A DNA stretch of 64,000 nt from Geitlerinema sp. BBD 1991-9 (lineage in GTDB: Bacteria; Cyanobacteriota; Cyanobacteriia; Cyanobacteriales; Geitlerinemataceae), in NCBI GenBank assembly GCA_001657325.1, contig LWRO01000029.1, positions 1-64,000 of the forward strand. Reading direction: 5' to 3'. The position numbers and the translations under genes were made by a program. Below are positions 2,443 to 58,989 of the stretch, one piece after another (the first letter of the stretch is position 1; each line of letters begins with the position of its first letter). Below the pieces are notes generated by a model. The model was given only the letters and a program-made list of their open reading frames with translations, was not told where the DNA came from and searched no databases.

Positions 2443-4896
2443 ATGACGAATTTACAAACAGATCGAGATCGAGCAGAAGGTTGGTTCAACGGTCTAAAGA
2501 ATTCCGAGGCTCAATTTCTGAATAGCTGCTACAACGCACCGCAATCTATGGCAGATTGGGTGCGGATCTACAATAAAGCCTTAGCAGCGATTACCTTTCT
2601 ATCTGAAGGCAACGCTTTGGCAACTTCGGATCGAGTCGATCCCGAGTTTAACCCGGTTCGGTCGGTGTTAGAAACCGGAGGGATATTGTGGGAAAGTGAA
2701 GAACGGTTTCACGCCCTCTTCGATCGAGCGGCTGCGTCCGTATCCTTACTCGAGCTAGACGGTCGCTTTGTCCGGGTCAATCAAAAATTATGTAATTTCT
2801 TGGGCTATAGCCGCTCCGAACTATTGGAGTTAGGTATAGCAGATATCACCCACCCTACCGACCTCGATCGGGTTCGAGACAACCTCGAGCGGTTGTTAGA
2901 AAGAACGGAGAACCCAATCTACACTCTCGAACAGCGGCTGATCTGTAAAGATGGCTCGATCGTCTGGGCACACTTCACGATTTCGATCGTGAAAGCGTCA
3001 GACGGATTTTCTAAATATCTCTTGGGGGTGTTGCTCGATATCAGCGATCGAAAGCACGTCTTTGAAGAAGGAGACAGCGTTAGAGCCAACCCGCGTCAAA
3101 ATGAAGGATACTTTCACACCCTTGTTCGCACGCTGGGCAGCGTCGTTATCGTCCTCTCCAGCGACAAGCAGGTTGTTGAGTGGAACGAGGAAGCCGAACG
3201 CTTGTGCGGTTGGCCTCGAGAGACCTTACTCGGCGAAGACTACTTGACTTTATGCGTCCCTCCCGCTTGGCAAAGCAACGTCACCGCCCAGTTCGATCTC
3301 GTGTTAGCTGGGAAATCGATGCGCGAGTTCGAGCATCCCGTTCTCAACTGGAATGGAAACCAGCGAGAGGTTTCGTGGAATTTCAACCGCTTGTACGACG
3401 CCCAATCTCAACGTTGGGAAATCGTGATGTGCGGTCGGGACGTGACTGAACGACAGCAAGCACAAAAAGCGTTGCCGGTAAGCGCCGAACCATTCCGTCA
3501 GATTTTCGAGCAGGTCGCCATCGGTTTGGCTTACGCGGACAGCCACGGTCGAATCGTGACTGCCAACCCCAAATTCGCCGATATTTGCGGTTGTTGCCCA
3601 GAAGACTTGAACGCGACCTCTGTCGCACGACTCGTTCACCCGGAAGATCGATCGGAGTGGTCGGAGGGGATAGGTCGGCTCCTCAGCCACGAACTGGCAA
3701 CATTTGCGCGAGAAATTCGTTACGTGCGTCGGGATGGTAAGGCGATTTGGGTGAAGTTTACGGCATCTGTCCTACGAGATGCTCAAGGCCAACCGGAAAA
3801 CCTGTTGTACGCCATCGAAGACCTCAGCGATCGAAAACAGGTAGAGGTCGCACCTAAAAGCGCCAACCCCCGACTCGTTGCCATCGTATCCGAACTCAAA
3901 CGTCGCCATCAGGAACTGGTCAGACTCGGACAAATGAGCGAGTTTTTACAAGTTTGTTCTTCTCTTCAGGAAGCCTACGAAACCTTGGGCGATCTCATGC
4001 TTCCCTTATTTCCCGGTTGTTCGGGAGGGCTGTTTCTCGTGTGTCCCGAGCGTGAGGAGTTGAAAGCGGTTTCGACGTGGGGCAAAGCCTCTGAGACGAC
4101 GAACGCCTTTACCTCGGATGATTGTTGGGCGTTACGCTTGGGACACTTGCATTGGAGCCAGGAAGCGTTGCCGGGTTTGCACTGTCACCACATTGGCGAT
4201 GACGTTCCTCCCGCTGAATGTTTATGCGTTCCAATTGTCGCCCAAGGGGAAACGTTGGGGGTGCTGCACGTTCGATCTGACGAAGCGGGCAGTTTGACCC
4301 AAGCCAAGCGACAGTTTTCCCAGACGGTGGCCGAACAACTCGCCCTCGCCCTATCAAACTTGCAATTGCGTGAAATCCTCAAGCATCAAAGTATCCGCGA
4401 TCCCCTGACCGGACTGTACAACCGCCGCTATCTAGAAGAAACGCTCGATCGAGAATTTCGCCGCGCTGCTCGCGAGGGGTATCCCATTAGCATTGTCATG
4501 CTCGATATCGATCGATTCAAAACGCTCAACGATACGTTCGGTCACGAAGCGGGTGATGCCGTGTTGGAAAGCCTCAGCAAATTTTTACTCGATTGCGTGC
4601 GCGGGTCGGATATTGCCTGTCGCTATGGAGGCGAGGAAATCACCCTCGTTCTTCCCGGTGCTTCCCTCGATGTCGCCTACGAGCGGGCTGAAACGTTGCG
4701 CCGGGGGATTTGCAATTTAAAAATTTGCAAAAGTGGGCGTTCTTTGGGGATTGTAACGGCGTCGTTCGGTGTAGCAGGGTTTCCCGACTGTGGAAAAACG
4801 TGGGACGTTCTCTTACGCGCGGCAGATACTGCCCTCTATCGTGCTAAAACCGCTGGACGCAATCGGGTTGTCATGGCAAAAACGGTGGTGAGTTAG
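2443..4896 (+). CDS. Diguanylate cyclase with three PAS domains and a GAF domain
   Basis: A multi-sensor cytoplasmic signalling enzyme predicted to make cyclic di-GMP from two GTP. Domain order: PAS about 86-205, PAS 222-340, PAS 345-470 (each ends in a DISDRK / DVTERQ / DLSDRK-type motif), GAF about 500-645, GGDEF about 650-815. The active-site motif is RYGGEEI, an acceptable GG(D/E)EF variant with Ile in the last place. Five residues upstream sits RGSD, a good RxxD inhibitory I-site, so product feedback is expected. No membrane segment is seen. I prefer ATG at 2443; a TTG five codons upstream is the alternative. There is no adjacent partner gene. Confidence 0.9.
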   Translation: MTNLQTDRDRAEGWFNGLKNSEAQFLNSCYNAPQSMADWVRIYNKALAAITFLSEGNALATSDRVDPEFNPVRSVLETGGILWESEERFHALFDRAAASVSLLELDGRFVRVNQKLCNFLGYSRSELLELGIADITHPTDLDRVRDNLERLLERTENPIYTLEQRLICKDGSIVWAHFTISIVKASDGFSKYLLGVLLDISDRKHVFEEGDSVRANPRQNEGYFHTLVRTLGSVVIVLSSDKQVVEWNEEAERLCGWPRETLLGEDYLTLCVPPAWQSNVTAQFDLVLAGKSMREFEHPVLNWNGNQREVSWNFNRLYDAQSQRWEIVMCGRDVTERQQAQKALPVSAEPFRQIFEQVAIGLAYADSHGRIVTANPKFADICGCCPEDLNATSVARLVHPEDRSEWSEGIGRLLSHELATFAREIRYVRRDGKAIWVKFTASVLRDAQGQPENLLYAIEDLSDRKQVEVAPKSANPRLVAIVSELKRRHQELVRLGQMSEFLQVCSSLQEAYETLGDLMLPLFPGCSGGLFLVCPEREELKAVSTWGKASETTNAFTSDDCWALRLGHLHWSQEALPGLHCHHIGDDVPPAECLCVPIVAQGETLGVLHVRSDEAGSLTQAKRQFSQTVAEQLALALSNLQLREILKHQSIRDPLTGLYNRRYLEETLDREFRRAAREGYPISIVMLDIDRFKTLNDTFGHEAGDAVLESLSKFLLDCVRGSDIACRYGGEEITLVLPGASLDVAYERAETLRRGICNLKICKSGRSLGIVTASFGVAGFPDCGKTWDVLLRAADTALYRAKTAGRNRVVMAKTVVS

Positions 4897-4942
4897 GGCA
4901 TTTTCTCCATCGACGCATCATTGGAATTCAGCAAGACCCCCT

Positions 4943-5050
4943 CGCAAATTACGAATCCACACACAACAATCCCCTCGATCGATCCCAACAACCGAGGGGA
5001 CAACTGAATCTACGTGCTTTCCCCAGCCTCCAACATCCCCAGCAGGGAGT
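4943..5050 (-). repeat. Dispersed repeat copy R1 (inverted orientation)
   Basis: Read on the minus strand this segment begins TCCCTGCTGGGGATGTTGGA and continues through an intrinsic-terminator-like hairpin (CCCCTCG...CGAGGGG). It matches the repeats at 5551-5655 and 8420-8524 over about 100 bp. It is the only copy in this orientation and, with the copy at 5551, brackets the DUF5996 remnant as an inverted pair. Confidence 0.7.
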
Positions 5051-5101
5051 TATCGTTACAGTGCAGCACTACCTTTTCCAGATTAGGGGATTCTCGTCGA
5101 T

Positions 5102-5491
5102 CGATCCCTAGCGTTCTTCTCCGAAAAGCTGGGGTTCGGTGACGGCGATGCCCAACGCCACCTCGTCCCCAACCTCCCCGATGAGGTAGCGAAAGAAGCC
5201 TACTGTCAGGAGGTCAGCAGCGCTGGCTTTTGGCCGGGGGCTGGACTGGGCTATCCGGCATTTTACTCCTACGCCTACCCCACTCCCGAGGGCTTCAAAG
5301 ATGCCCCCGTCCAGCCTGAATCTGCGTTTTTCCATGAAGGGCTGGGTGAGTTTATCCTGCCTTACGATGCTGTACGCGAAGCGGACAATCCTGACCGGGC
5401 TCTTTTGAGTTTTCTCGAAAGTACCTACGAAGCCGCTGCCAATTTAGCCAGTTGGGACAAGGAGGCTCTGAAACAAACTTGGTTCAAGTGA
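5102..5491 (+). pseudogene. DUF5996 family protein, C-terminal fragment
   Basis: An open frame without a start codon ends at TGA 5489-5491. It encodes the conserved C-terminal part of DUF5996: SSAGFWPGAGLGYPAFYSYA, PTPEGFKDAPVQPESAFF, GEFILPYDAVREADNPDRAL and TYEAAANLASWDKEAL. The N-terminal two thirds of the family (starting with a WRDTCATLHLW-type motif) are absent; the sequence before 5102 is the R1 repeat. The function of DUF5996 is not established. The fragment lies between inverted repeats, so it may have been moved or truncated by repeat recombination. Confidence 0.75.
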
Positions 5492-5511
5492 CACCACACA
5501 TACAAGTTTGC

Positions 5512-5547
5512 AATCGTTGGTTCGATCGACCCGTTTGTCGTGACTGA
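5512..5547 (+). pseudogene. Haemagglutinin-family exoprotein, 3' stump
   Basis: Twelve codons read NRWFDRPVCRD then TGA, nearly identical to the last codons (NRWLERPVCRD) of the exoprotein gene ending at 8416. The similarity continues past the stop into repeat R2. This is therefore the tail of a former paralogue; nothing else of that gene is visible upstream because the DUF5996 fragment abuts it. Confidence 0.6.
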
Positions 5548-5550
5548 ATG

Positions 5551-5655
5551 CCCTGCTAGGGATGTTGGAGGCTGGAAAGAGCGCTTAGGTTGAATTATCC
5601 CCTCGGTTAGATCGATCGAGGGGATTTTTGTGGTTGGACTCGTAATTTTCGAGGT
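5551..5655 (+). repeat. Dispersed repeat copy R2
   Basis: Begins CCCTGCTAGGGATGTTGGAG and runs about 105 bp, nearly identical to the copy at 8420-8524 and in inverted orientation to the copy at 4943-5050. It includes a terminator-like hairpin at 5598-5629. It follows an exoprotein gene tail, as copy R3 does. Confidence 0.75.
5598..5629 (+). terminator. Intrinsic terminator inside repeat R2
   Basis: Stem TCCCTCG-type arms (TCCCCTCG at 5598-5605 and CGAGGGGA at 5617-5624) followed by five Ts. The same structure recurs in R3. Confidence 0.6.
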
Positions 5656-5910
5656 CGATCCGTTTCTCGACTCTGATGTTTACGTCAGTTCACAAAATCC
5701 TTTGTGTTTATTGCAAATTTTCAAGTTTCTATATACGTTCGATCGTGTGTTTTATGCGTGTAAATACGTATGTTTTTTTCATTTTTTAACTCTCAACTCA
5801 AGTGTCTTATCGGCTATCGACATCTCCAATAGCCCATGTCATATTGGACAAAAGAGTTCTTTTTTTTGAGTATATAAATTTTAACAAAAACCCAGAAAAA
5901 AATACTAATC

Positions 5911-8416
5911 ATGACCCTTAAAAATTGGCCAAGCATATCGTATCGATTTCTAGCTGTCGCAGTTGCTTCGAGTACTCAGCTATTATTGTTCGGGTTTCTA
6001 TCTTCAAAACCCGCATTTTCACAAATCCTCCCAGACAATACTCTTGCCGTTCCTTCTCAGGTGACCATTGATGGAAACGTTCACACCATTGAAGGCGGAA
6101 CGGAAGCGGGAAGCAACCTCTTCCACTCGTTCCAAGACTTTTCCGTCCCCACCGGCAGCGAAGCCTTTTTCAACAACGACCGTTGAAAACATCCTCACCC
6201 GTGTGACGGGGGGCAACATCTCCAATATCGACGGATTGATACGAGCCAACGGAACGGCGAACCTGTTTCTGCTCAATCCCAACGGTATCGTCTTCAGAGA
6301 AAACGCCCGTCTGGACGTTGGTGGCTCGTTTTTCGCCACGACCGCCAACAGTCTCGTCTTTGAAAACGGTTTAGAATTCAGCGCGACCTCTGCCAACGCG
6401 CAACCGTTGCTCAGTGTGAGTGTTCCCCTCGGCTTGCAATTCAATCAAAATCCCGGAGCAATTCGGGTGCAAGGGACGGGTCACAATTTCTCGTTTGCGG
6501 TTCCCGGTTTGGCTCTCACACCCATTATCAGAGGAAATGGCGACTCGGGTCTGCGGGTCAGTCCGGGCCAGACCCTCGCCCTGGTGGGGGGGGAAGTCAC
6601 CTTAGAGGGAGGCACGCTGAGGGCCGAGCAAGGACGGATCGAGCTCGGGAGCGTGGCTGAAGGTCGAGTGGGCCTGTCCCCAACAGGCTTAGGATGGATG
6701 TTGGACTATGAAGGCGTCCCTAGCTTTCAAGATCTGAGGCTCTCCCAACGGGCGGCAGCCGATGTCAGTGGCGAGGGCGGCGGTGCGATCCAGATGGTGG
6801 GTCGGCAAGTCACCCTGGGGGAGGGTTCGGTCGTTTTGATTCAAAACATCGGACTACAACCCTCTGGGAGTATTCGCATTAATGCCTCGGAGTCGATGGA
6901 GGTGCTCGGCCTCCGTCCAGATGCCACCTTTCAGAGCTCTGTGTACTCTCAAACTCTCGGAACTGGGCGTGGCGGAGACATTGCCATTTCTACTCGACAG
7001 TTAGTTGTTCGGGATGGGGCCGAGATCGCCGCTCGAACTCTTAGTCCGGGCCAGGGGGGCAATATAGATCTGAAGGTCTCAGAATCCGTGGAAGTGCTCG
7101 GGGTTTCGCCCATCGATCCCAGGTTTATCTCTACCATCTCGTCAAATGCGTTGGGTCTAGGAGATGGCGGAAATACCACGGTGTCAACCGCTCGGCTCTC
7201 AGTCAGGGATGGGGGTCTCATATCCTCTGCCACTTTCGGTCTGGGTACTGGAGGAAAGCTTACGGTGAATGCGACTGAATTTATAGAAGTGATTGGAGGA
7301 GACCTCAGGACTTTTCCCAGTAGTCTGACTGGTCAAACTGTCACGGTCGGAGATGGAGGCGACCTAACGATCGACACGCCCCGATTAGTGTTGCAGGAGG
7401 GAGGTCAGGTAACCACTTCCGCCTTTGGCAGTGGACAGGCGGGAAGCATCACGATTAATGCCACCTCCTCCATCGAAGCGAGTGGCTCTTTGTTACCGGG
7501 CTTCCCCGCTGGAGTGACTTCCAATGCCCAGCCGGCCCCTGAAATCCTACAACAAAACTTGGGACTGTCTGGCGTAGTGAGTGGAACCTCTGGAGATGTG
7601 ACGATAAACACGCCCGTGTTGAGCCTCACAGATGGAGCGCAAGTGACTGTGGCGAATCCGGGGACGGGAAATGCGGGTTCTGTGCAAGTCAATGCGGGCT
7701 CGATTTTCCTCAACGATGAAGGGGGCATCACGGCCGCCACTGCCTCGGGGGAAGGAGGCAACGTCATCCTCCGCGCAGACGACTCCTTACAACTGCGCCG
7801 CGCCAGTCAAATTACGGCCGAAGCTGGGGGAACTGGCAACGGTGGTAATTTGACGCTCTCGGCGGACACGATCGCGCTGTTAGAAGGCAGCACCATCAGT
7901 GCCAACGCCTTTGAAGGTCGCGGAGGCAACATCCAAATCGCCACGCAAGGTCTGTTTCTCTCCCCAGATAGCAATATTACTGCCAGTTCCCAACTCGGCG
8001 TAGACGGTATCGTCACCGTTACCGACCCCGAAGTCGATACCAGTTCGGCATTGGTTTCGCTAAGCGACAATCCCATCGACCCGACGACTCAGATCGTTTC
8101 AACTTGTGCGATCGCTGAGGAGAACACGTTTATCGTCACGGGGAACGGGGGTTTGCCAGCCGATCCCACAGGTATCTTGAGGGGTGAAGACGTTTGGGTA
8201 GACACGCGACTTTCCGAGGATCTCGAGGTGGCACCGATCGAAGCCAGCACCAGCGAGGCAGAAGACAGCTCGGAAGAAGATAGCTCGATCGAGCCTCAGC
8301 CTCTCGTCGAAGCCACAGGTTGGCAGCGTCACGAGAACGGAACGGTGGAGTTAGTCGTCACCCCCCAAGGACAACTGGGGAATCGTTGGCTCGAGCGACC
8401 CGTTTGTCGTGACTGA
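5911..8416 (+). pseudogene. Two-partner-secretion exoprotein (haemagglutinin N-terminal domain), frameshifted
   Basis: A predicted secreted beta-helix adhesin. The first frame (5911-6186) gives a signal peptide (hydrophobic AVAVASSTQLLLFGFLSS, cleavage near AFS-QILPD) and the start of the TPS domain (HTIEGGTEAGSNLFHSFQDF). It hits TGA at 6184-6186. The rest continues in the next frame: VENILTRVTGGNISNIDGLI and NLFLLNPNGIVFRENARLDV, then long Gly/Ser/Thr-rich beta-helix repeats and a C-terminal module LVEATGWQRHENGTVELVV ... RPVCRD. A deletion of about 2 or 5 nt, or a 1-nt insertion, near 6178-6184 explains the break. The corrected length would be about 834 residues. Sequencing error or phase variation is possible. 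No TpsB transporter gene is in the window. Confidence 0.8.
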
Positions 8417-8419
8417 ATG

Positions 8420-8524
8420 CCCTGCTAGGGATGTTGGAGGCTGGAAAGAGCGCTTAGGTTGAATTGTCCCCTCGGTTGGATCGATCGAGGGGATTTTTGT
8501 GGTTGGCCTCGTAAATTGCGAGGT
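8420..8524 (+). repeat. Dispersed repeat copy R3
   Basis: Begins CCCTGCTAGGGATGTTGGAG directly after the exoprotein stop and matches R2 over about 105 bp. The identity with R2 extends upstream into the last codons of the coding sequence, pointing to duplication of a whole gene-plus-tail unit. Confidence 0.75.
8467..8498 (+). terminator. Intrinsic terminator inside repeat R3
   Basis: Arms TCCCCTCG (8467-8474) and CGAGGGGA (8486-8493) with a T5 run. It is positioned to end transcription of the exoprotein gene. Confidence 0.65.
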
Positions 8525-8877
8525 TGCATGTTTTTGCATCGGTCAAAAAAGTTTGTAGAGATAGGAGAGTCGATCTCCAGTCTGTTAAGAAACGCACCAA
8601 CTCACGCGATCGCAGCACTGTTTCGGTATAGAGGCGGTTAGTTTAAAAGTAGAGATCGGTTTCTGTTGCACTCCCAGTTGGCAGGGAACGAAGCTGACTT
8701 TTCCCGCTAAGTCCTGCAACTCCCTAATAGCAAGGGGTCTGGGGGGAATCGTGAAGGTCAATAAGCTAATGCTATTGACAACTGTTAACGAGCTTACAGG
8801 GCTTACAGTCTATGAAAATCGAGCGGGATTTCTTTCTCCAAAAGATAACGGGAAAAGTCAGGAACGAAGGAGTCGAG
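8525..8877. other. Gene-free stretch before the methyltransferase
   Basis: About 350 bp with no recognisable gene, RNA or repeat. Short open frames here overlap the methyltransferase in other frames and look spurious. Confidence 0.4.
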
Positions 8878-9528
8878 ATGATTGGCTTCGGTTCGAGATC
8901 GGTCGTGTCAGAAGGGCCTGCCGATCCAAAGGGATTTCAGGAGTCCTTTGACGAGTTCTACACGAGGACGGCAAGGCTCTACGACCTTGCCGTGAAGGTT
9001 CTCCCGGTGTGGAAGACCTGGCTGAAGCAGGCACTCCCATACATTCAAGGTCAACGGGTGTTGGAGGTATCGTTTGGTACCGGATACCTATTGATGCAGT
9101 ATGCCAGTAGATTCGAGACGCACGGAGTTGACCTCAACGCTCGTATGGTAGCCGTCGCCAGGAGGAACCTGGAAAAGAGTGGGATACACGCCGATCTCAA
9201 GCAGGGGAACGTGGAGCAGCTGCCCTACGCCGACGAATACTTCGATACGGTCATCGACACCATGGCGTTCTCAGGATACCCCGATGGCGCACGCGCCGTA
9301 TCAGAAATACGACGTGTTCTCAAACCGGGCGGACGGCTTGTTCTAATCGACGTGAATTACCCGACAGATCGCAATTGGCTGGGAATGCGACTGATTGGTT
9401 TTTGGCAATACTTGGGCGACATCGTTCGGGACATAGGCAAACTCCTTGAAGATCGTGGCTTTGATTGCGAAGACAGGGAGATCGGGGGATTCGGCAGCGT
9501 CCACATATACGTTTGTCAGAGACGATGA
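8878..9528 (+). CDS. Class I SAM-dependent methyltransferase (Methyltransf_11 type)
   Basis: A small cytosolic methyltransferase of about 216 residues. Motif I is VLEVSFGTGYLL (E/DxGxGxG variant with Ser-Phe in the loop), followed by the acidic THGVDLNARM motif, the NVEQLPYADEYFDTVIDTM segment (motif II region) and IRRVLKPGGRLVLID (motif III). ATG 8878 is preceded by AAGGAG at 8867-8872, so I choose it over an in-frame ATG 22 codons upstream. The substrate is unknown. The gene lacks the TCGATCGA octamers common in the rest of the window, which suggests acquisition from elsewhere. It has no operon partner. Confidence 0.85.
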   Translation: MIGFGSRSVVSEGPADPKGFQESFDEFYTRTARLYDLAVKVLPVWKTWLKQALPYIQGQRVLEVSFGTGYLLMQYASRFETHGVDLNARMVAVARRNLEKSGIHADLKQGNVEQLPYADEYFDTVIDTMAFSGYPDGARAVSEIRRVLKPGGRLVLIDVNYPTDRNWLGMRLIGFWQYLGDIVRDIGKLLEDRGFDCEDREIGGFGSVHIYVCQRR

Positions 9529-9662
9529 GGGGACACCGATCGTCACTGAGCGATACGTGCTTACGCACGCCCTTCATGCCAAATCCAGTTGTCATAGCAT
9601 CACTATATGAATCCCTCAAATTTTTTCTTGGCAAAAATTACAGGGAATAGTAATATGCTACT

Positions 9663-9830
9663 TTCAGAAGTGGATTTGGTATCAAACCGTTTGTGGCAAT
9701 TGCCGTTCGTCCAACTCGGAGTTGCGATATTGATAAAAAGCCTGCATTGTATGACTTAGTAGGCAATCGTCCCGACCTCACGGGGGAAGAGTTTATGGAC
9801 TCACTTAGAGAAGAGGGTAATTCGCAATAA
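9663..9830 (+). pseudogene. Possible small-protein remnant, unrecognised
   Basis: An open frame without a clear start reads FGIKPFVAIAVRPTRSCDID and KKPALYDLVGNRPDLTGEEF before TAA at 9828-9830. The composition looks protein-like (acidic, ending in a short helix), somewhat reminiscent of antitoxin tails, but I cannot assign a family. It may be the end of a truncated gene, or chance. Confidence 0.25.
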
Positions 9831-9870
9831 GACAGTGATTTGAGGGACTCATAATAAAGGGAAATTTTCC

Positions 9871-10374
9871 ATGTCAACAGAAGCAATTTTTCAGATTGTA
9901 TCGATCTTGGCTACATTTTTTTGCTCTCTGGTAGCAGGCTTCCTGTTTGCTTTTGCCTTAGTGGTGATGCCGGGTATAAAAAGTTTAAATAATCGAGAGT
10001 TTATTCAAACTTTTCAGGTGATGGATCGCATTATCCAAAATAATCAGCCAATTTTCGTGTTGGTCTGGGTCGGTTCAGTTTTGGTTTTGGTGACTTCGGC
10101 TGTGCTTGGCATTTGGCAATTGGATAGAGTTGGGCATCTGCTCGTAACCCTCGCCTCGCTCGCTTATATTCTCGGTGTCCAATTGCCGACCTTCACGATT
10201 AACGTCCCGCTGAATAACAAACTACAAACTCTGAATATCGATAATATGAATGAAACGACATATAAAGCAGCTCGTATTGATTTTGAACCACGTTGGAATC
10301 TGTGGAATTCAATCAGGACACTTTTTGCGTGCCTGACATCTGTCCTCTTAATAATTCTAATATTCAGAGTTTAA
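9871..10374 (+). CDS. DUF1772 (anthrone oxygenase-like) membrane protein
   Basis: A 167-residue integral membrane protein with four predicted hydrophobic helices: about 8-34, 62-84, 88-105 and 147-166. The order of helices, the FALVVMPG motif after helix 1, the conserved NVPLNNKL motif in the loop after helix 3 and the WNLWNSIRT motif before the last helix are those of DUF1772. The family is named for a fungal anthrone oxygenase, but bacterial members have no established role. It starts at ATG 9871 after a weak AAAGGGAAA site. It stands alone in an AT-richer region. Confidence 0.8.
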   Translation: MSTEAIFQIVSILATFFCSLVAGFLFAFALVVMPGIKSLNNREFIQTFQVMDRIIQNNQPIFVLVWVGSVLVLVTSAVLGIWQLDRVGHLLVTLASLAYILGVQLPTFTINVPLNNKLQTLNIDNMNETTYKAARIDFEPRWNLWNSIRTLFACLTSVLLIILIFRV

Positions 10375-10748
10375 AGTAATGTGATAGTCGTGTTGTCTGA
10401 CAAGACAGTGTACCGGAAACCAATGACCTTTTTGAAATTATCTCAAGGCTAAAACCTACGGCTCTTCCGAACTTACTATGCAAGAAATCGCTAAAACTTT
10501 TACAAATTAGGACTTTCAATTTAAGCTTATAAAAAGGGGTCTAAAATTGCGAAATCTCTTTCCAGATGAAGGCTATAGATATTGACCCTACATACCGAGA
10601 TCGGAAGAGCCTGAAAGAATTTACATTGCGATACAAAACGAACAGAATTTAGCTTGGTCTACTTAGTGATATAGTGCCTAAACAAAAGTTCTGTAATTAC
10701 ATGAGTGGTGATAAGCGTCGAATAAGAAATCATGGTTTTAGAAGATGA
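10375..10748. other. Gene-free stretch
   Basis: About 370 AT-rich bases between the DUF1772 gene and a PAS fragment. I see no convincing ORF, RNA or repeat. Confidence 0.4.
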
Positions 10749-10970
10749 TTTTTTTCTCCAGATTTAGGAAAAAATATCTCAATTAAGTATTCACAATTGA
10801 TTGAATCACTGCCGATAGGGGTAGTGTTACTCAATTGTGATGCAAAAATTTTATATGTCAATGCAAACGCAGCGGCAACTTTTAGCAAAACGCGACAAGA
10901 TTTATTAGAACAGCCTTGGGAAGGAGTAATTTCTGTAAACGAAGTCCATCAGTTTCAGACTCAGGGGAGA
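10749..10970 (+). pseudogene. Orphan PAS-domain fragment
   Basis: The frame reads KYSQLIESLPIGVVLLNCDA then KILYVNANAAATFSKTRQDL, which is the start of a PAS fold (ligand pocket entry helix and first strands). After about 60 residues it degenerates into unrelated sequence. No start codon with ribosome-binding site precedes it and no kinase or GGDEF output follows. It is the remnant of a sensor gene truncated at both ends. Confidence 0.55.
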
Positions 10971-11164
10971 AGGGCGCATACATCGACGAAAAATCTGTAA
11001 CCCAGTCCTTCTGCCAGTATCCGGAATTCGAAGCGACGCGGCAACGGCAGGCGGGCCGGTCGGACTCACGGACCGTACATATGCAGTCGGTCGCAGATCG
11101 AGAGGCCGCGAGCGAACTCTTCCCAGCTTCGATCGCTCGCTCGACGAGCCAGCCAACCACTTTG

Positions 11165-11355
11165 CGGGCATCCGCAATTTGGTCAAACGTAGTCACGGCG
11201 GGGGTTTTAAGTGTTAGGGCTATCACCTCAGCGGCACCCCAGACCACCACTTTCAAGCCTCCTCGAATCTGGTCAAACGTAGCTACAGCAGAGCTTCCAA
11301 ATTTCAAGACGACCACCCCAGAGCATCAATTTGTCGGGGCCGCCAATCTGGTCGA
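11165..11355. repeat. Three imperfect copies of an AATYTGGTCRAA-containing motif
   Basis: The element AAT(T/C)TGGTCAAACGTAG recurs near 11170-11186 and 11270-11286, with a weaker version (AATCTGGTCGAAGTC) near 11344. The spacing is about 100 and 75 bp. Open frames exist on both strands across them but none resembles a known protein. The surrounding 10.97-11.7 kb is otherwise unassigned. Confidence 0.4.
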
Positions 11356-11408
11356 AGTCAGCTCGGGGACAAAACGAGAGGTCAACCGGTCTGACTCCTC
11401 GATCGACT

Positions 11409-11464
11409 AGCTCGCGTGACGCGAGGAGATGCCACAGCTCGATCGAACAGCTCGCGTGACGCGA
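11409..11464. repeat. Direct repeat AGCTCGCGTGACGCGA, 40-bp period
   Basis: The 16-mer AGCTCGCGTGACGCGA occurs at 11409-11424 and again at 11449-11464. Its core GCGTGACGC is nearly palindromic. It lies in non-coding sequence. Confidence 0.5.
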
Positions 11465-11740
11465 CGTACATATAATGGAAGGTGTAACCGGATCGTTGGA
11501 ACCCGGAGTTCTCGCACGTGTAGACTTTCAATAATTCTCAGTCATCGATCGATACGCCGAAGCGGGGTTCGCTCTGCGTCGCCGTCGAGCCGGAGCGTCG
11601 AACCCCATGAGAATCGCGTCGCGGCGGTCGGAGCTGGTTCCCTTGAGGCTATGATAATCCAAGGCTTTGACGATTGACTGTGTCGTTCCTTAACCCCCAC
11701 CTGTTCCGAGGTGAGGGAATGCGTCGCTCGTTTCGTTCAA
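11465..11740. other. Gene-free stretch upstream of the aminotransferase
   Basis: GC-rich sequence with several short palindromes (for example around 11550-11610, GGGTTCG...CGAACCC) but no supportable gene. Confidence 0.35.
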
Positions 11741-11782
11741 CTCCCTGCTGGAGATGTTGGAGGCAGGGAAAAGCGCGTAGGT
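11741..11782 (+). repeat. Dispersed repeat copy R4 (partial)
   Basis: CTCCCTGCTGGAGATGTTGG at its start, followed by AGGCAGGGAAAAGCGCGTAGG, matches the first about 42 bp of R1-R3 but lacks the terminator half. Confidence 0.55.
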
Positions 11783-11917
11783 AAGCTCACCCCGGTCTGA
11801 AGACGCGGAGCTTCCCGCCGAGAAGCTAACGTCAAGGGGTCGTGAATTTTTTATCCCCCTCTTAAGCCCCGCGACTTTCACCCATCATCTCATCACCCTC
11901 TCATCTCTCCATCTTCC

Positions 11918-13084
11918 ATGCTCGAACCGACTCGTATGCAAGCCGTTCAATCGCCGATTATTCCCATCGTCGGCGAACTGATTCGCCAGCATCCCGGTAC
12001 GATTTCCCTGGGACAAGGGGTTGTTTCCTATCCACCACCACCGGAAGCCACGGAGAAACTGACCGAATTTTTCAACGATCGAACCAATCACCTCTATCAA
12101 TCCGTACAGGGGATTTCACCGCTTCTCGAAGTTATCGAAGCTAAGTTGCAAGCCGAAAACGATATCGCCATTACAGACGAAAACTGCATTGTCGTCACGG
12201 CGGGGGGCAACATGGCATTTAATAACGCCGTTCTCGCCATTACGCAACCCGGCGACGAGATCGTTTTACAAACGCCGTATTATTTCAATCACGAAATGGC
12301 GGTGATGATGGCGGGATGTCGTCGAGTCCTGGTGAATACCGACGATCGATATCAATTGCGTCCCGAGGCGATCGAGCATTCTATTACTGACAAAACCCGC
12401 GCTGTGGTGACGATTTCACCGAACAATCCAACGGGGGCAGTATATCCCGAAGCGGCGTTACAAACTGTCAATCGCCTGTGTCGGGAACGGGGAATTTACC
12501 ACATTCACGATGAAGCCTACGAATACTTTACCTACGACGGTGTCAAACACGTTTCGCCCGCATCGTTTCCGAATAGCGCGAAGCATACAATTTCGCTGTT
12601 TAGTTTGTCGAAAGCCTATGGGTTCGCCAGTTGGCGCATCGGCTATATGGTGTTCCCGAAAGTTCTGCTCGATGCGGTGAAGAAAATTCAAGATACGATT
12701 TTGATTTGTCCGCCAGTCGTGTCACAATATGCGGCATTAGGAGCGTTGCAGGTGGGAAAACAGTACTGCGAGCCACAGCTTCAGAAATTGGCAGCAGTGC
12801 GACAATTGGTATTGGAACGATTGGAAGCGTTACGAGATATTTGTTCGATCGAGCCGTCTACGGGAGCATTTTACGTGTTCTTGAAGGTTAAAACCTCGAT
12901 CGATTCGTTAACATTAGTGGAACGACTGATCCGCGAATATCGCGTAGCGGCGATTCCGGGGACGACGTTCGGGATGGAGGACGGGTGTTATCTGCGGGTG
13001 GCGTATGGGGCGTTACAAAAAGAAACGGTGGAAGCGGGGATCGATCGATTGGTTCGCGGGTTGAGATCGATCGTTGCATTGTAG
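11918..13084 (+). CDS. Class I/II PLP-dependent aminotransferase
   Basis: A 388-residue fold-type I aminotransferase, full length for the aspartate-aminotransferase superfamily. Substrate-binding Gly segment TISLGQGVVSYPPP; PLP-phosphate anchoring VVTAGGNMAF; the Asn of SPNNPTGAVY; the Asp/Tyr pair in IHDEAYEYF; the Schiff-base Lys in FSLSKAYGFASWRIGY; and the C-terminal Arg in YLRVAYGALQ that would bind the substrate carboxylate. All key residues are present. The amino-acid substrate cannot be read from sequence. The gene is rich in TCGATCGA and looks native. No partner gene is adjacent. Confidence 0.9.
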   Translation: MLEPTRMQAVQSPIIPIVGELIRQHPGTISLGQGVVSYPPPPEATEKLTEFFNDRTNHLYQSVQGISPLLEVIEAKLQAENDIAITDENCIVVTAGGNMAFNNAVLAITQPGDEIVLQTPYYFNHEMAVMMAGCRRVLVNTDDRYQLRPEAIEHSITDKTRAVVTISPNNPTGAVYPEAALQTVNRLCRERGIYHIHDEAYEYFTYDGVKHVSPASFPNSAKHTISLFSLSKAYGFASWRIGYMVFPKVLLDAVKKIQDTILICPPVVSQYAALGALQVGKQYCEPQLQKLAAVRQLVLERLEALRDICSIEPSTGAFYVFLKVKTSIDSLTLVERLIREYRVAAIPGTTFGMEDGCYLRVAYGALQKETVEAGIDRLVRGLRSIVAL

Positions 13085-28270: not shown

Positions 28271-28435
28271 GGTGCGTTACGCGGAAATCTCATTAACTGG
28301 ATTTCTAATACCATTTCTCGATAATCTTGCTAGAGATCTTCGGCTGAACTTGGGCGAACACCGTTCGCCCCTACAGACATCTATGGCATGAATTTTTAAA
28401 AATGGTATAACCCATTTTTGTCCGCGTAACACACC
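28271..28435. mobile_element. Miniature inverted-repeat element, interrupted by another
   Basis: Left arm GGTGCGTTACGCGGA (28271-28285) and right arm TCCGCGTAACACACC (28421-28435) form a 15-bp terminal inverted repeat with one mismatch. Between them lies the sequence shared with 14121-14160, split by a complete 101-bp inner element. No transposase is encoded. I could not see a clear target duplication. Confidence 0.6.
28308..28408. mobile_element. 101-bp MITE (ATACCATTT family), copy 1
   Basis: Begins ATACCATTTCTCG and ends AAATGGTAT, a 9-bp perfect terminal inverted repeat. It contains an inner palindrome GGGCGAAC-ACC-GTTCGCCC. An inverted, nearly identical copy of the same length lies at 58889-58989. 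It is inserted in the outer element. Confidence 0.7.
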
Positions 28436-44584: not shown

Positions 44585-44862
44585 TCCTCTCTGCTTGTGG
44601 GGTGGCAGTGGAGAACACGCTTATCGTAACGGAGAGCGGGGGGTTGCCACCCGATCCCATGGAAGTCTTGAGGAGTCAGTCTATTTGGAGCGATATGCGA
44701 CTGTCGGAGATTCTCGAACCCAATCGAGCGATCGAACGTCTACCGAACGAGGCAGAAGACCAGGAAGAAAGCTTTGAGCCTCCGTCTCTCGTGGAAGCGA
44801 CGGGTTGGCAGCATCACGAGGAACGAGTTAGCAATCGTTGGTTCGATCCCACTTGTCGTTAG
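44585..44862 (+). pseudogene. Haemagglutinin-family exoprotein, C-terminal remnant
   Basis: The frame reads SACGVAVENTLIVTESGGLP, SIWSDMRLSEILEPN and LVEATGWQHHEERVSNRWFD then PTCR and TAG. This aligns with the C-terminus of the gene ending at 8416 (STCAIAEENTFIVTGNGGLP ... LVEATGWQRHENG ... RPVCRD). The beta-helix and TPS domain are absent. A decayed copy of repeat R follows. It is a third paralogue reduced to its tail. Confidence 0.72.
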
Positions 44863-44867
44863 CCAAC

Positions 44868-44895
44868 ACCCTGCTAGGGATATTAGCAGCCTCAA
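44868..44895 (+). repeat. Dispersed repeat copy R5 (decayed)
   Basis: CACCCTGCTAGGGATATTAG and the following GCAGCCTC match the start of repeats R2 and R3 and sit just after an exoprotein stop, as those do. The terminator half is not recognisable. Confidence 0.45.
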
Positions 44896-44989
44896 ACTGA
44901 AGTTCGAGATCGATCGCTCGATCGAAATGCTCGTTCTACAATAAGGGAAAATTCAATTCTTCAAGGGCAATGGCACAGCCCGAGAAACC

Positions 44990-45973
44990 ATGACACGCAA
45001 AAATACGCGACGGAATTTTCTAGTAACCGGGGCTGCGGCTGCTGCTGGTGTTGTTGGAGTCCGGGTGTTCCAGCAAGTTCGCCAAAAAAACGCCCAACCC
45101 CCCGAACCTCTTCCTGAAGTCGAACCCATTCCCGAGCGCACCTTGGGAGAAACCGGAGTGGTTCTCCCGATGTTCGGCTTGGGGGGAGCTGGTCGAACCC
45201 CGTTGTCGAAGGAAGGACAAGAACGAGAAGCCCAAGACCTGATTGAAGGTGCTTTGCAACTAGGGATTCGTTACTTTGATACGGCGGCGGATTACGGCCC
45301 GAGCGAGAAAAATTTGGGTAAAGTACTCGCCCCCTACCGAGATCGATTGTTTATTGCTAGTAAGACAGCGGTTCGCGATCGCGATGGAGCTTGGCGGGAA
45401 TTGGAGCGTTCCCTACGGCGTTTGAAAACGGATTATCTCGACTTATGGCAGCTTCACCACGTCTCGTTACCTGAAGAAAACGAGGAAATCTTCAGTCAGC
45501 GGGGAGCGATTCACGCCATTGAGGAAGCGAAGGAACAGGGTCTCGTTCGGTTGGTGGGTATTACCGGACACCACGACCCAGATGTGATTGTCGAAGGGTT
45601 ACGCCGCTACCGCTTCGATACTACCTTGATTCCAGTGAACGCAGTCGAAATTCATCATCCTCACTCGTTCGTGTCTACAGTCATGCCGGTTGCTCGGGAG
45701 CAAAATTTGGGAACGATTGCCATGAAAGTCCCAGCCTGGGGGCGTTTGCTCCAACCCGGTCTTCTCGATGGAATGCACCAAGCCCTAGGGTATACGCTTT
45801 CTGTTCCTGGGGTTCACTCGTGCATTGTTGCTGTGGAGAACTTGGCTCAGTTGGAACAAAACATCACGCTGGCTCGCCAGTTCGAACTGTTGGACGAGGA
45901 AGCGATGGTGGCAATTTCACAACGCACTGCAGCCGATTGGGAGGAATTAACGTTCTATCGGGCTTGGACTTAA
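44990..45973 (+). CDS. Aldo/keto reductase with a Tat-type signal
   Basis: A 327-residue aldo/keto reductase. The N-terminus TRKNTRRNFLVTGAAAAAGV is a twin-arginine signal (RRNFLV), so export of a folded, cofactor-loaded enzyme is predicted. The catalytic tetrad can be read in RYFDTAADYGPSEKNLGKVL (Asp and Tyr), LFIASKTAVRD (Lys) and LDLWQLHHVSL (His). The NADPH-binding loop near the C-terminus is short (SVPGVHSCIVAVENLAQLEQ). The substrate is unknown. It may be linked to cell-envelope redox reactions. AGGGCAATGG precedes the start. Confidence 0.88.
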   Translation: MTRKNTRRNFLVTGAAAAAGVVGVRVFQQVRQKNAQPPEPLPEVEPIPERTLGETGVVLPMFGLGGAGRTPLSKEGQEREAQDLIEGALQLGIRYFDTAADYGPSEKNLGKVLAPYRDRLFIASKTAVRDRDGAWRELERSLRRLKTDYLDLWQLHHVSLPEENEEIFSQRGAIHAIEEAKEQGLVRLVGITGHHDPDVIVEGLRRYRFDTTLIPVNAVEIHHPHSFVSTVMPVAREQNLGTIAMKVPAWGRLLQPGLLDGMHQALGYTLSVPGVHSCIVAVENLAQLEQNITLARQFELLDEEAMVAISQRTAADWEELTFYRAWT

Positions 45974-55738: not shown

Positions 55739-55931
55739 TTTATTGATTCTATTATCGTAATTTTTGCACGACAATCAAATAGAAGGTAAATATCTGCATC
55801 CGTTCGTCTTCCTCACTTTCTCCATCTCTCTCCAACAACCAATTCAGTACATCCCCAAAAGGCAACCTTGTAAATTATCGATTGCCTTTTTCCCCTTCCC
55901 CCATAAAAAATGCTACAATCCAGACTTTAAG
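55739..55931. other. Intergenic, promoter of thiC
   Basis: About 190 bp between the DUF4276 stop and the TPP riboswitch, expected to hold the thiC promoter. No clear hairpin terminator. Confidence 0.35.
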
Positions 55932-56012
55932 TAGCTAGGGGTGCCTGAGTCGTCAGGCTGAGATTACACCCTTAGAACCTGAGTCCGGTTAGTACCGGCG
56001 AAGGGAAGCTGT
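55932..56012 (+). promoter_or_regulatory. TPP riboswitch (THI element)
   Basis: The conserved elements of the thiamine pyrophosphate aptamer are in order: AGGGGTGCC, GGCTGAGA, ACCCTTAGAACCTGA (the pyrimidine sensor), then CCGGTTAGTACCGGCGAAGG (the P4/P5 arm with AAGGGAAGC). It lies 19 bp upstream of thiC, with AGAGGA at about 56017-56022 just after it, so control of translation initiation by sequestering the ribosome-binding site is likely. No T-run terminator follows. Confidence 0.9.
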
Positions 56013-56018
56013 TCTTAG

Positions 56019-57419
<1,401 letters not shown>

Positions 57420-58387: not shown

Positions 58388-58901
58388 ATGACCGTTACGC
58401 CATACAATGCGATCGATCTCCAAGATTTTTTAAAACTCCCCGAAACCCAACCCGCCAGCGAGTACCTCGACGGGAAAGTTATCCAAAAAACCATGCCGAA
58501 GGCACGTCATTCGCGACTCCAAAACAAGTTAATTCAGGCAATTAGCGAAGTGGCAGAAGACGCACAAATCGCCTACGGGTTTTTTGGAGTTGCGCTGTAC
58601 CTTCGGAAATCGATTTCTAGTTCCCGATTTTGCGGTGTTTCGCTGGGAACGCATCGCCTTCGATGAGACAGGGGAACCCATTGACGATGTGGAGATTGCG
58701 CCAGATTGGGTTATTGAGATTCTGTCGCCACAGCAAAGCGCAAATCGCGTTGCTGGCAAGATTTTACATTGCTTGCATTATGGGTGTCAATTGGGTTGGC
58801 TTGCCGATCCGGACGATCGATCGATTTTGGTGTTTCAACCTCAGCAAGAGCCGATGTTGTGTGAGGGTTCGATGCAATTGAGGGTTTTATACCATTTTTA
58901 A
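58388..58901 (+). pseudogene. Second Uma2 family endonuclease, frameshifted
   Basis: ATG 58388 starts MTVTPYNAIDLQDFLKLPET, and KVIQKTMPKARHSRLQNKLI follows. Around 58575-58584 the frame shifts in GGGTTTTTTGG: with one T less it reads AYGFLELRCTFGNRFLVPDF and goes on to AVFRWERIAFDETGEPIDDV and PDWVIEILSPQQSANRVAGK, then the LADPDDRSILVFQPQ tail. All Uma2 blocks exist in the joined frame. The last three residues and the stop come from a miniature element that starts at 58889. Confidence 0.72.
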
Positions 58902-58989
58902 AAATTCATGCCATAAATGTCTGTAGGGGCGAACGGTGTTCGCCCAAGTTCAGCCGAAGATCTCTAGCAGGATTATCGAGAAATGGTAT
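58889..58989. mobile_element. 101-bp MITE (ATACCATTT family), copy 2
   Basis: Same length, terminal repeats (ATACCATTT / AAATGGTAT) and inner GGGCGAAC...GTTCGCCC palindrome as 28308-28408, but inverted. It sits at the 3' end of the second Uma2 gene and provides its stop codon. Confidence 0.72.

Follow-up and report, generated by a model that had tools for sequence, protein, structure and literature searches.

Why does a short, hairpin-bearing repeat recur beside exoprotein genes? The question is raised by the window analysed here, a 64,000-nt stretch of DNA from Geitlerinema sp. BBD 1991-9, in which the original prediction recognised three units (R1, inverted, R2 and R3) sharing about 105 bp with a terminator hairpin, and two partial ones (R4 and R5). 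Based on comparisons of the copies and of the DNA around them, we propose, and consider it probable, that the repeat is the scar of a duplicated cassette composed of an HTH tail, a terminator, a promoter and an exoprotein gene, joined at the stop codon of the exoprotein. The features on which the argument turns are the following.

4935-5053, minus strand: R1, full copy, inverted; tail NSLLGMLEAGEST with stop, terminator-like hairpin at 5001-4969, then the palindrome.
5153-5473, plus strand: truncated DUF5996 gene remnant (profile positions 188-295 of 296).
5488-5545 (approximately), plus strand: exoprotein C-terminus relic, directly 5' of R2.
5545-5659, plus strand: R2, full copy; tail NALLGMLEAGKSA with stop, terminator-like hairpin at 5597-5625.
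5911-8416, plus strand: TPS-type exoprotein gene, split by a frameshift near 6186 into 5911-6186 and 6068-8416; body of the duplicated cassette.
8414-8528, plus strand: R3, full copy, beginning at the exoprotein stop codon; terminator-like hairpin at 8466-8494.
11739-11780, plus strand: R4, tail remnant NSLLEMLEAGKSA with stop, lacking the terminator.
44602-44908, plus strand: R5, consisting of an 86-aa exoprotein remnant (44602-44862) and, after it, the beginning of the tail.

R1, R2 and R3 are real repeats, with a core of about 110 bp made up of a 42-nt stretch, the hairpin with its T-run and a short palindrome. The repeats were confirmed at 4940-5047 (minus strand), 5551-5655 and 8420-8524, respectively. 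R2 and R3 have 168 bp in common at 90% identity, and R1 matches them at 81.5% and 82.4% over 108 bp. Chance is ruled out as their source, because a 17-mer of the tail finds five matches in the window at up to three mismatches, where 0.10 are expected, and the hairpin pattern finds two against 0.00 expected; four of the tail matches are R1 to R4, while the fifth, at 45045, is no copy but part of an unrelated ORF. R4 and R5 are partial as predicted, R4 being the coding-like tail alone and R5 (about 44823-44908) the end of the exoprotein remnant plus part of the tail. That R2, R3 and R5 each directly follow an exoprotein gene end applies fully to R3 and, by way of the remnant, to R5, but R2 comes after a short relic only. 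R2 also precedes the frameshifted exoprotein gene that R3 follows, whose longer frame (6068-8416) carries the TPS / haemagglutinin N-terminal domain (PF05860, 2e-53; TIGR01901, 8.2e-20).

At least 11 full copies of the unit, and several partial ones, are present in the genome (5.98 Mb, 113 contigs). At the DNA level, at least 29 matches reached E<=1 among the best 40 of 82 candidates scored, the strong ones corresponding to exoprotein C-termini or to copies of the unit. With a covariance model of the 11 full copies, at least 17 places reached E<=1 among the best 150 of 10,385 candidates scored, namely the training copies together with C111, R4, C54:9953, C89a, C85 and C34. C54:9953 consists of the hairpin only and adjoins an ORF that we take, from its sequence, to resemble an IS3-type transposase; the match in C85, inside a long ORF, is probably due to chance; and that in C34 is weak (E=0.29), corresponding by eye to an exoprotein-end relic with tail. 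The figure of 11 is thus a lower bound.

Seen from the copies, the predicted tie to exoprotein genes holds. Eight of the 11 full copies (R2, R3, C54a, C54b, C105a, C105b1, C105b2 and C89b) have an exoprotein gene or relic as a direct neighbour, on one side or both and no more than about 350 bp away. Of the other three, R1 and C54c are in inverted orientation, and other sequence separates them from an exoprotein relic or exoprotein end at distances of about 435 and 690 bp, respectively; C55 is so close to the end of its contig (about 670 bp) that its further neighbours are out of view. Most copies are thus found near exoproteins rather than away from them, and their hairpin is conserved, as a terminator, so that the refuting condition given with the original prediction, which asked for distant copies together with a lack of conserved structure, does not apply. 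Seen from the genes, the tie does not hold: the 50 matches to the TPS domain (PF05860) in this roughly 6-Mb genome, merged by judgement to 46 exoprotein loci, include only six loci flanked by a full unit, on one side or both (one in C7, two in C54, two in C105 and one in C89), and partial units occur at the exoprotein loci of C74 and C34. The unit is a property of one group of exoprotein cassettes, not of exoproteins generally.

Homology between these loci is not confined to the unit. Positions 5564-8524 of the window align with C105 over 2,984 bp at 77%, continuously through unit, exoprotein gene and unit. Similarly, an 864-bp alignment of R2 and C54b (76%) crosses the unit and runs on into the next gene, and the homology of C54b and C105b extends from -786 to +872 (65%). 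All exoprotein-following copies have one common junction, at the stop codon. R1 and its adjacent DNA to 5168 belong to a separate 232-bp duplicon, common to contig C55. In a tree of the 11 copies, the HTH and orphan copies split weakly from the rest (38/83), and C105a, though preceding an exoprotein, groups with the exoprotein-following copies.

We propose the following sequence of events. The unit would be a composite relic, formed by the 3'-terminal ~14 codons of a small XRE/HTH-like gene, its intrinsic terminator and the short palindrome, and would originally have been located upstream of an exoprotein gene, as it still is at C54. Tandem duplication of the cassette may then have brought the HTH tail up against the exoprotein stop codon, and the terminator would as a result be found behind exoprotein genes too, and not only in front of them. 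Copying of whole cassettes to several loci presumably came later, with R1, R4, R5, C55 and C54c as inverted or truncated leftovers, and in the arrays the hairpin, located between adjacent exoprotein genes, probably continues to act as a plain rho-independent terminator. The earlier suggestion that the unit spreads with the gene tail is hence nearly right: it travels with exoprotein cassettes, but the tail appears to be that of the upstream HTH-like gene and not that of the exoprotein.

The cassette model has to accommodate three full copies, R1, C54c and C55, that lie outside cassettes and need separate rearrangements. These same copies, with homology from about -41 to +70 in other contexts, would be natural if the ~110-bp unit were a small non-autonomous mobile element (MITE-like or a small dispersed repeat), inserting beside genes and bringing a terminator with it, and both the number of full copies in one genome and the other short repeats of the window are compatible with such an element. 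We consider this unlikely, however, as no terminal inverted repeats are visible in the 11-copy alignment, the ends are not fixed (5' ends at -24, -30 or -41, or continuous with the exoprotein) and most copies sit inside longer homology that spans exoprotein genes.

Two observations concern the duplicated regions more broadly. Near R4, window positions 11144-11456 match C55 (78%, 245 bp) and C54 (94-95%, 68 and 59 bp), contigs that hold unit copies too, and the stretch appears to be a shuffled duplicon zone. In addition, the exoprotein paralogues in C7 (window ~6183) and C105b (C105 ~50447) are interrupted by a frameshift at one and the same position of the TPS domain, after which long open frames follow. 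A programmed frameshift was considered and set aside; since the gaps relative to paralogues differ (5 and 4 nt), separate or successive lesions are likelier.

The HTH component of the cassette is the tail. The first 42 nt of the unit read NALLGMLEAGKSA and a stop, or close to it, and at C54 this stretch ends an open 109-aa HTH-like frame just upstream of the exoprotein gene; its matched part (1938-2168) scores 22.6 bits against HTH_3 (E=1.1e-4), just below the cutoff of 23. Upstream of the C89 exoprotein gene lies a decayed HTH C-terminus with the same tail and an internal stop; DNA homology between C54a and C89b extends from -112 to +786 at 70%, with tblastn at E=0.16 only. Nine tails keep one open frame, ending in TAG or TAA, and pairwise differences between tails are distributed over the codon positions as 116/54/160 (160 of 330 at the third; P=0.023 for that frame, 0.068 for any). 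The orphan tails of R1, R4, C54c, C55 and C111 retain the same frame and stop with no exoprotein end before them. In a MAFFT alignment, the HTH is matched throughout by XRE proteins from Agrobacterium, Scytonema, Calothrix, Synechocystis and one genome of the order, but the tail columns are weak, because 19 of 20 matches to plasmid XRE records stop at 47-52; only one reaches residue 71 of 77, and the XRE origin of the tail therefore rests mainly on the C54 and C89 loci. Counting against an HTH-gene origin, only one of the HTH frames remains open, and towards its N-terminus it appears scrambled.

Since several tails stand after exoproteins but only one HTH copy is open, and since the tail is not clearly conserved in XRE relatives, transfer might also have run the other way, with the HTH ORF acquiring its C-terminus from an exoprotein 3' region that already existed. 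The orphan tails just described, and XRE relatives with a weakly alignable C-terminal stretch, render this highly unlikely, and we infer that the tail passed from the HTH-like gene to the exoprotein junctions.

The second component of the cassette is the terminator. The hairpins of R1, R2 and R3 have the longest stems among 17 terminator-like sites at 4000-12500 (9.4 sites in shuffles), with 13, 13 and 12 pairs in the three G+C-rich stems. The T-run follows the stem directly, as TTTTTGTGG at R2 and R3 and as the weaker TTGTTGTG at R1. The 51-nt hairpin piece has z-scores of -3.54 (R3) and -3.69 (R2), and the 119-121-nt units alone have -2.15, -1.39 and -1.40. Over the 11 full copies, 97.7% of the cells in the stem are paired, with the T-run next. 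The covariation analysis suggested with the original prediction thus finds a hairpin conserved as a terminator, but, of its 12 pairs, five vary on a single side and none on both. In a second small helix, one of five pairs changes on both sides, in two sequences, which 320 of 500 shuffles reach as well; for both helices the covariation score is reached by 17 of 500 shuffles and the percentage paired by 23 of 500, levels that can be attained from relatedness alone, without structure. Because no terminator pair changes on both sides, nothing past an ordinary terminator is supported: the data match an intrinsic terminator, with no sign of a more elaborate RNA. An Rfam scan of the window at the gathering score gave no match near the unit; its only match was a TPP riboswitch (RF00059) at 55927-56023.

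Conservation of the unit was compared with that of its surroundings in the alignment to C105. The R2 core is 87% identical to C105a (80/92) and the adjoining spacer 54% (123/227), whereas the exoprotein parts have 234/276, 1093/1390 and 663/810 identical positions and R3 has 74/95, with 17 gap columns. In this one comparison, the R2 core is hence much more conserved than the spacer and a little more than the coding parts, to which R3 is similar. Passive copying alone fails to explain the conservation of R2, given the difference between core and spacer; selection on the terminator or gene conversion is the likely cause, at which the single comparison hints. Tentatively, the HTH-tail-terminator block may even be a homogenised hotspot, kept alike by gene conversion between copies while spacers diverge and acting as a recombination handle, a possibility to which we attach limited weight. 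If so, exoprotein genes would duplicate, swap and invert (R1-R2) via the block within the lineage. The well-conserved R2 core, the hairpin kept in 11 copies and the low shuffle counts, which relatedness alone can give, might also be cited for a reading in which exoprotein mRNAs have a structured regulatory RNA or 3' element of their own, as first suggested for the region downstream of these genes, but this is hardly tenable given the lack of an Rfam family, the 0 of 12 terminator pairs changed on both sides, the frequency with which shuffles reach the lone such pair of the second helix, and the 40 of 46 exoprotein loci that have no full copy.

In agreement with the original prediction, R1 and R2 flank the DUF5996 fragment as an inverted pair. 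The description of the fragment as foreign was not borne out: the family is present in 38 of 291 genomes of the order, including this one, where the fragment is the sole DUF5996 match, and its G+C (0.53-0.57) is unremarkable. None of the 13 other listed genomes of the same family has DUF5996. A decayed gene suffices to explain the fragment, and a recent transfer into this genome may have taken place.

Outside this genome, the unit DNA had no match at E<=1e-4 among the best three candidates scored in each of 290 others sampled from the order. Diverged copies elsewhere could therefore be missed, and this genome itself shows only three of its copies in that 291-genome search. A longer query, with the best 20 candidates scored, gave marginal matches in two of 38 relatives, one to an exoprotein end and the other to 22 bases of the hairpin 3' arm and T-run. 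Plasmid and phage DNA searched for the unit gave no match. The HTH peptide was found in this genome only at E<=1e-10 (39 genomes), and in this genome and two weak relatives at E<=1e-5 (291 genomes); in a scan of genome contigs with this peptide, 136 stretches match a pattern and four encode a relative, none cyanobacterial by title. In the portions of the literature consulted, no report naming the ~110-bp unit was found.

Other repeats occur in the same genome. A ~101-bp element, near-identical (98%) at window positions 28308-28408 and 58889-58989, has imperfect 30-nt inverted ends (ATACCATTT...AAATGGTAT) and looks like a MITE; of its further copies, one precedes an exoprotein-like ORF by about 420 bp (C111:3963-4063) and another follows an exoprotein end at about 190 bp (C74 67532-67630). 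C55 (L033 9989-10604) contains an array of the palindromic repeat CTCGCCAAATGCGAGG, partly with a 34-bp period, directly after its unit copy. A 23-mer of this array was found in C55 alone at up to three mismatches without gaps, and variants shorter by one base are seen by eye in C105 and beginning in C54c. The palindrome CTCGCN5GCGAGG has 10 forward and 7 reverse matches genome-wide, against 1 and 4 for controls, and 7 of the 17 fall in C55.

In conclusion, the repeat is mostly ordinary genome wear and tear. It shows that a large exoprotein family, here 46 TPS loci in a 6-Mb genome, can grow via cassette duplication and leave regulatory-looking scars, and it advises caution, in that a hairpin-bearing repeat found after one class of genes can be a duplication junction and not a functional RNA.

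Several known systems resemble parts of the unit. Cyanobacterial small dispersed repeats and MITEs are likewise short and lineage-limited, but the unit has no inverted ends and most of its copies are explained by longer duplications. REP and BIME elements, as far as the consulted parts of two reports describe them (PMC3733652, PMC3116915), are also intergenic palindromic repeats, and a hypothesised role in termination is mentioned for them (PMC3733652); the present unit differs in its ~110-bp length, the about a dozen copies found, its coding-derived sequence and its spread with neighbouring genes. XRE-family HTH regulators match the C54 ORF in the HTH core, whereas the tail is weakly alike and an exoprotein gene follows here; on an Agrobacterium rubi plasmid the XRE regulator precedes an annotated reverse transcriptase gene, whose protein the neighbour of the Scytonema XRE gene resembles by eye. 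With rho-independent terminators, finally, the unit shares a G+C-rich stem of 12-13 bp followed by a T-run, and is set apart from them by the placement of its hairpin in a repeated block together with the remnant of a gene tail.
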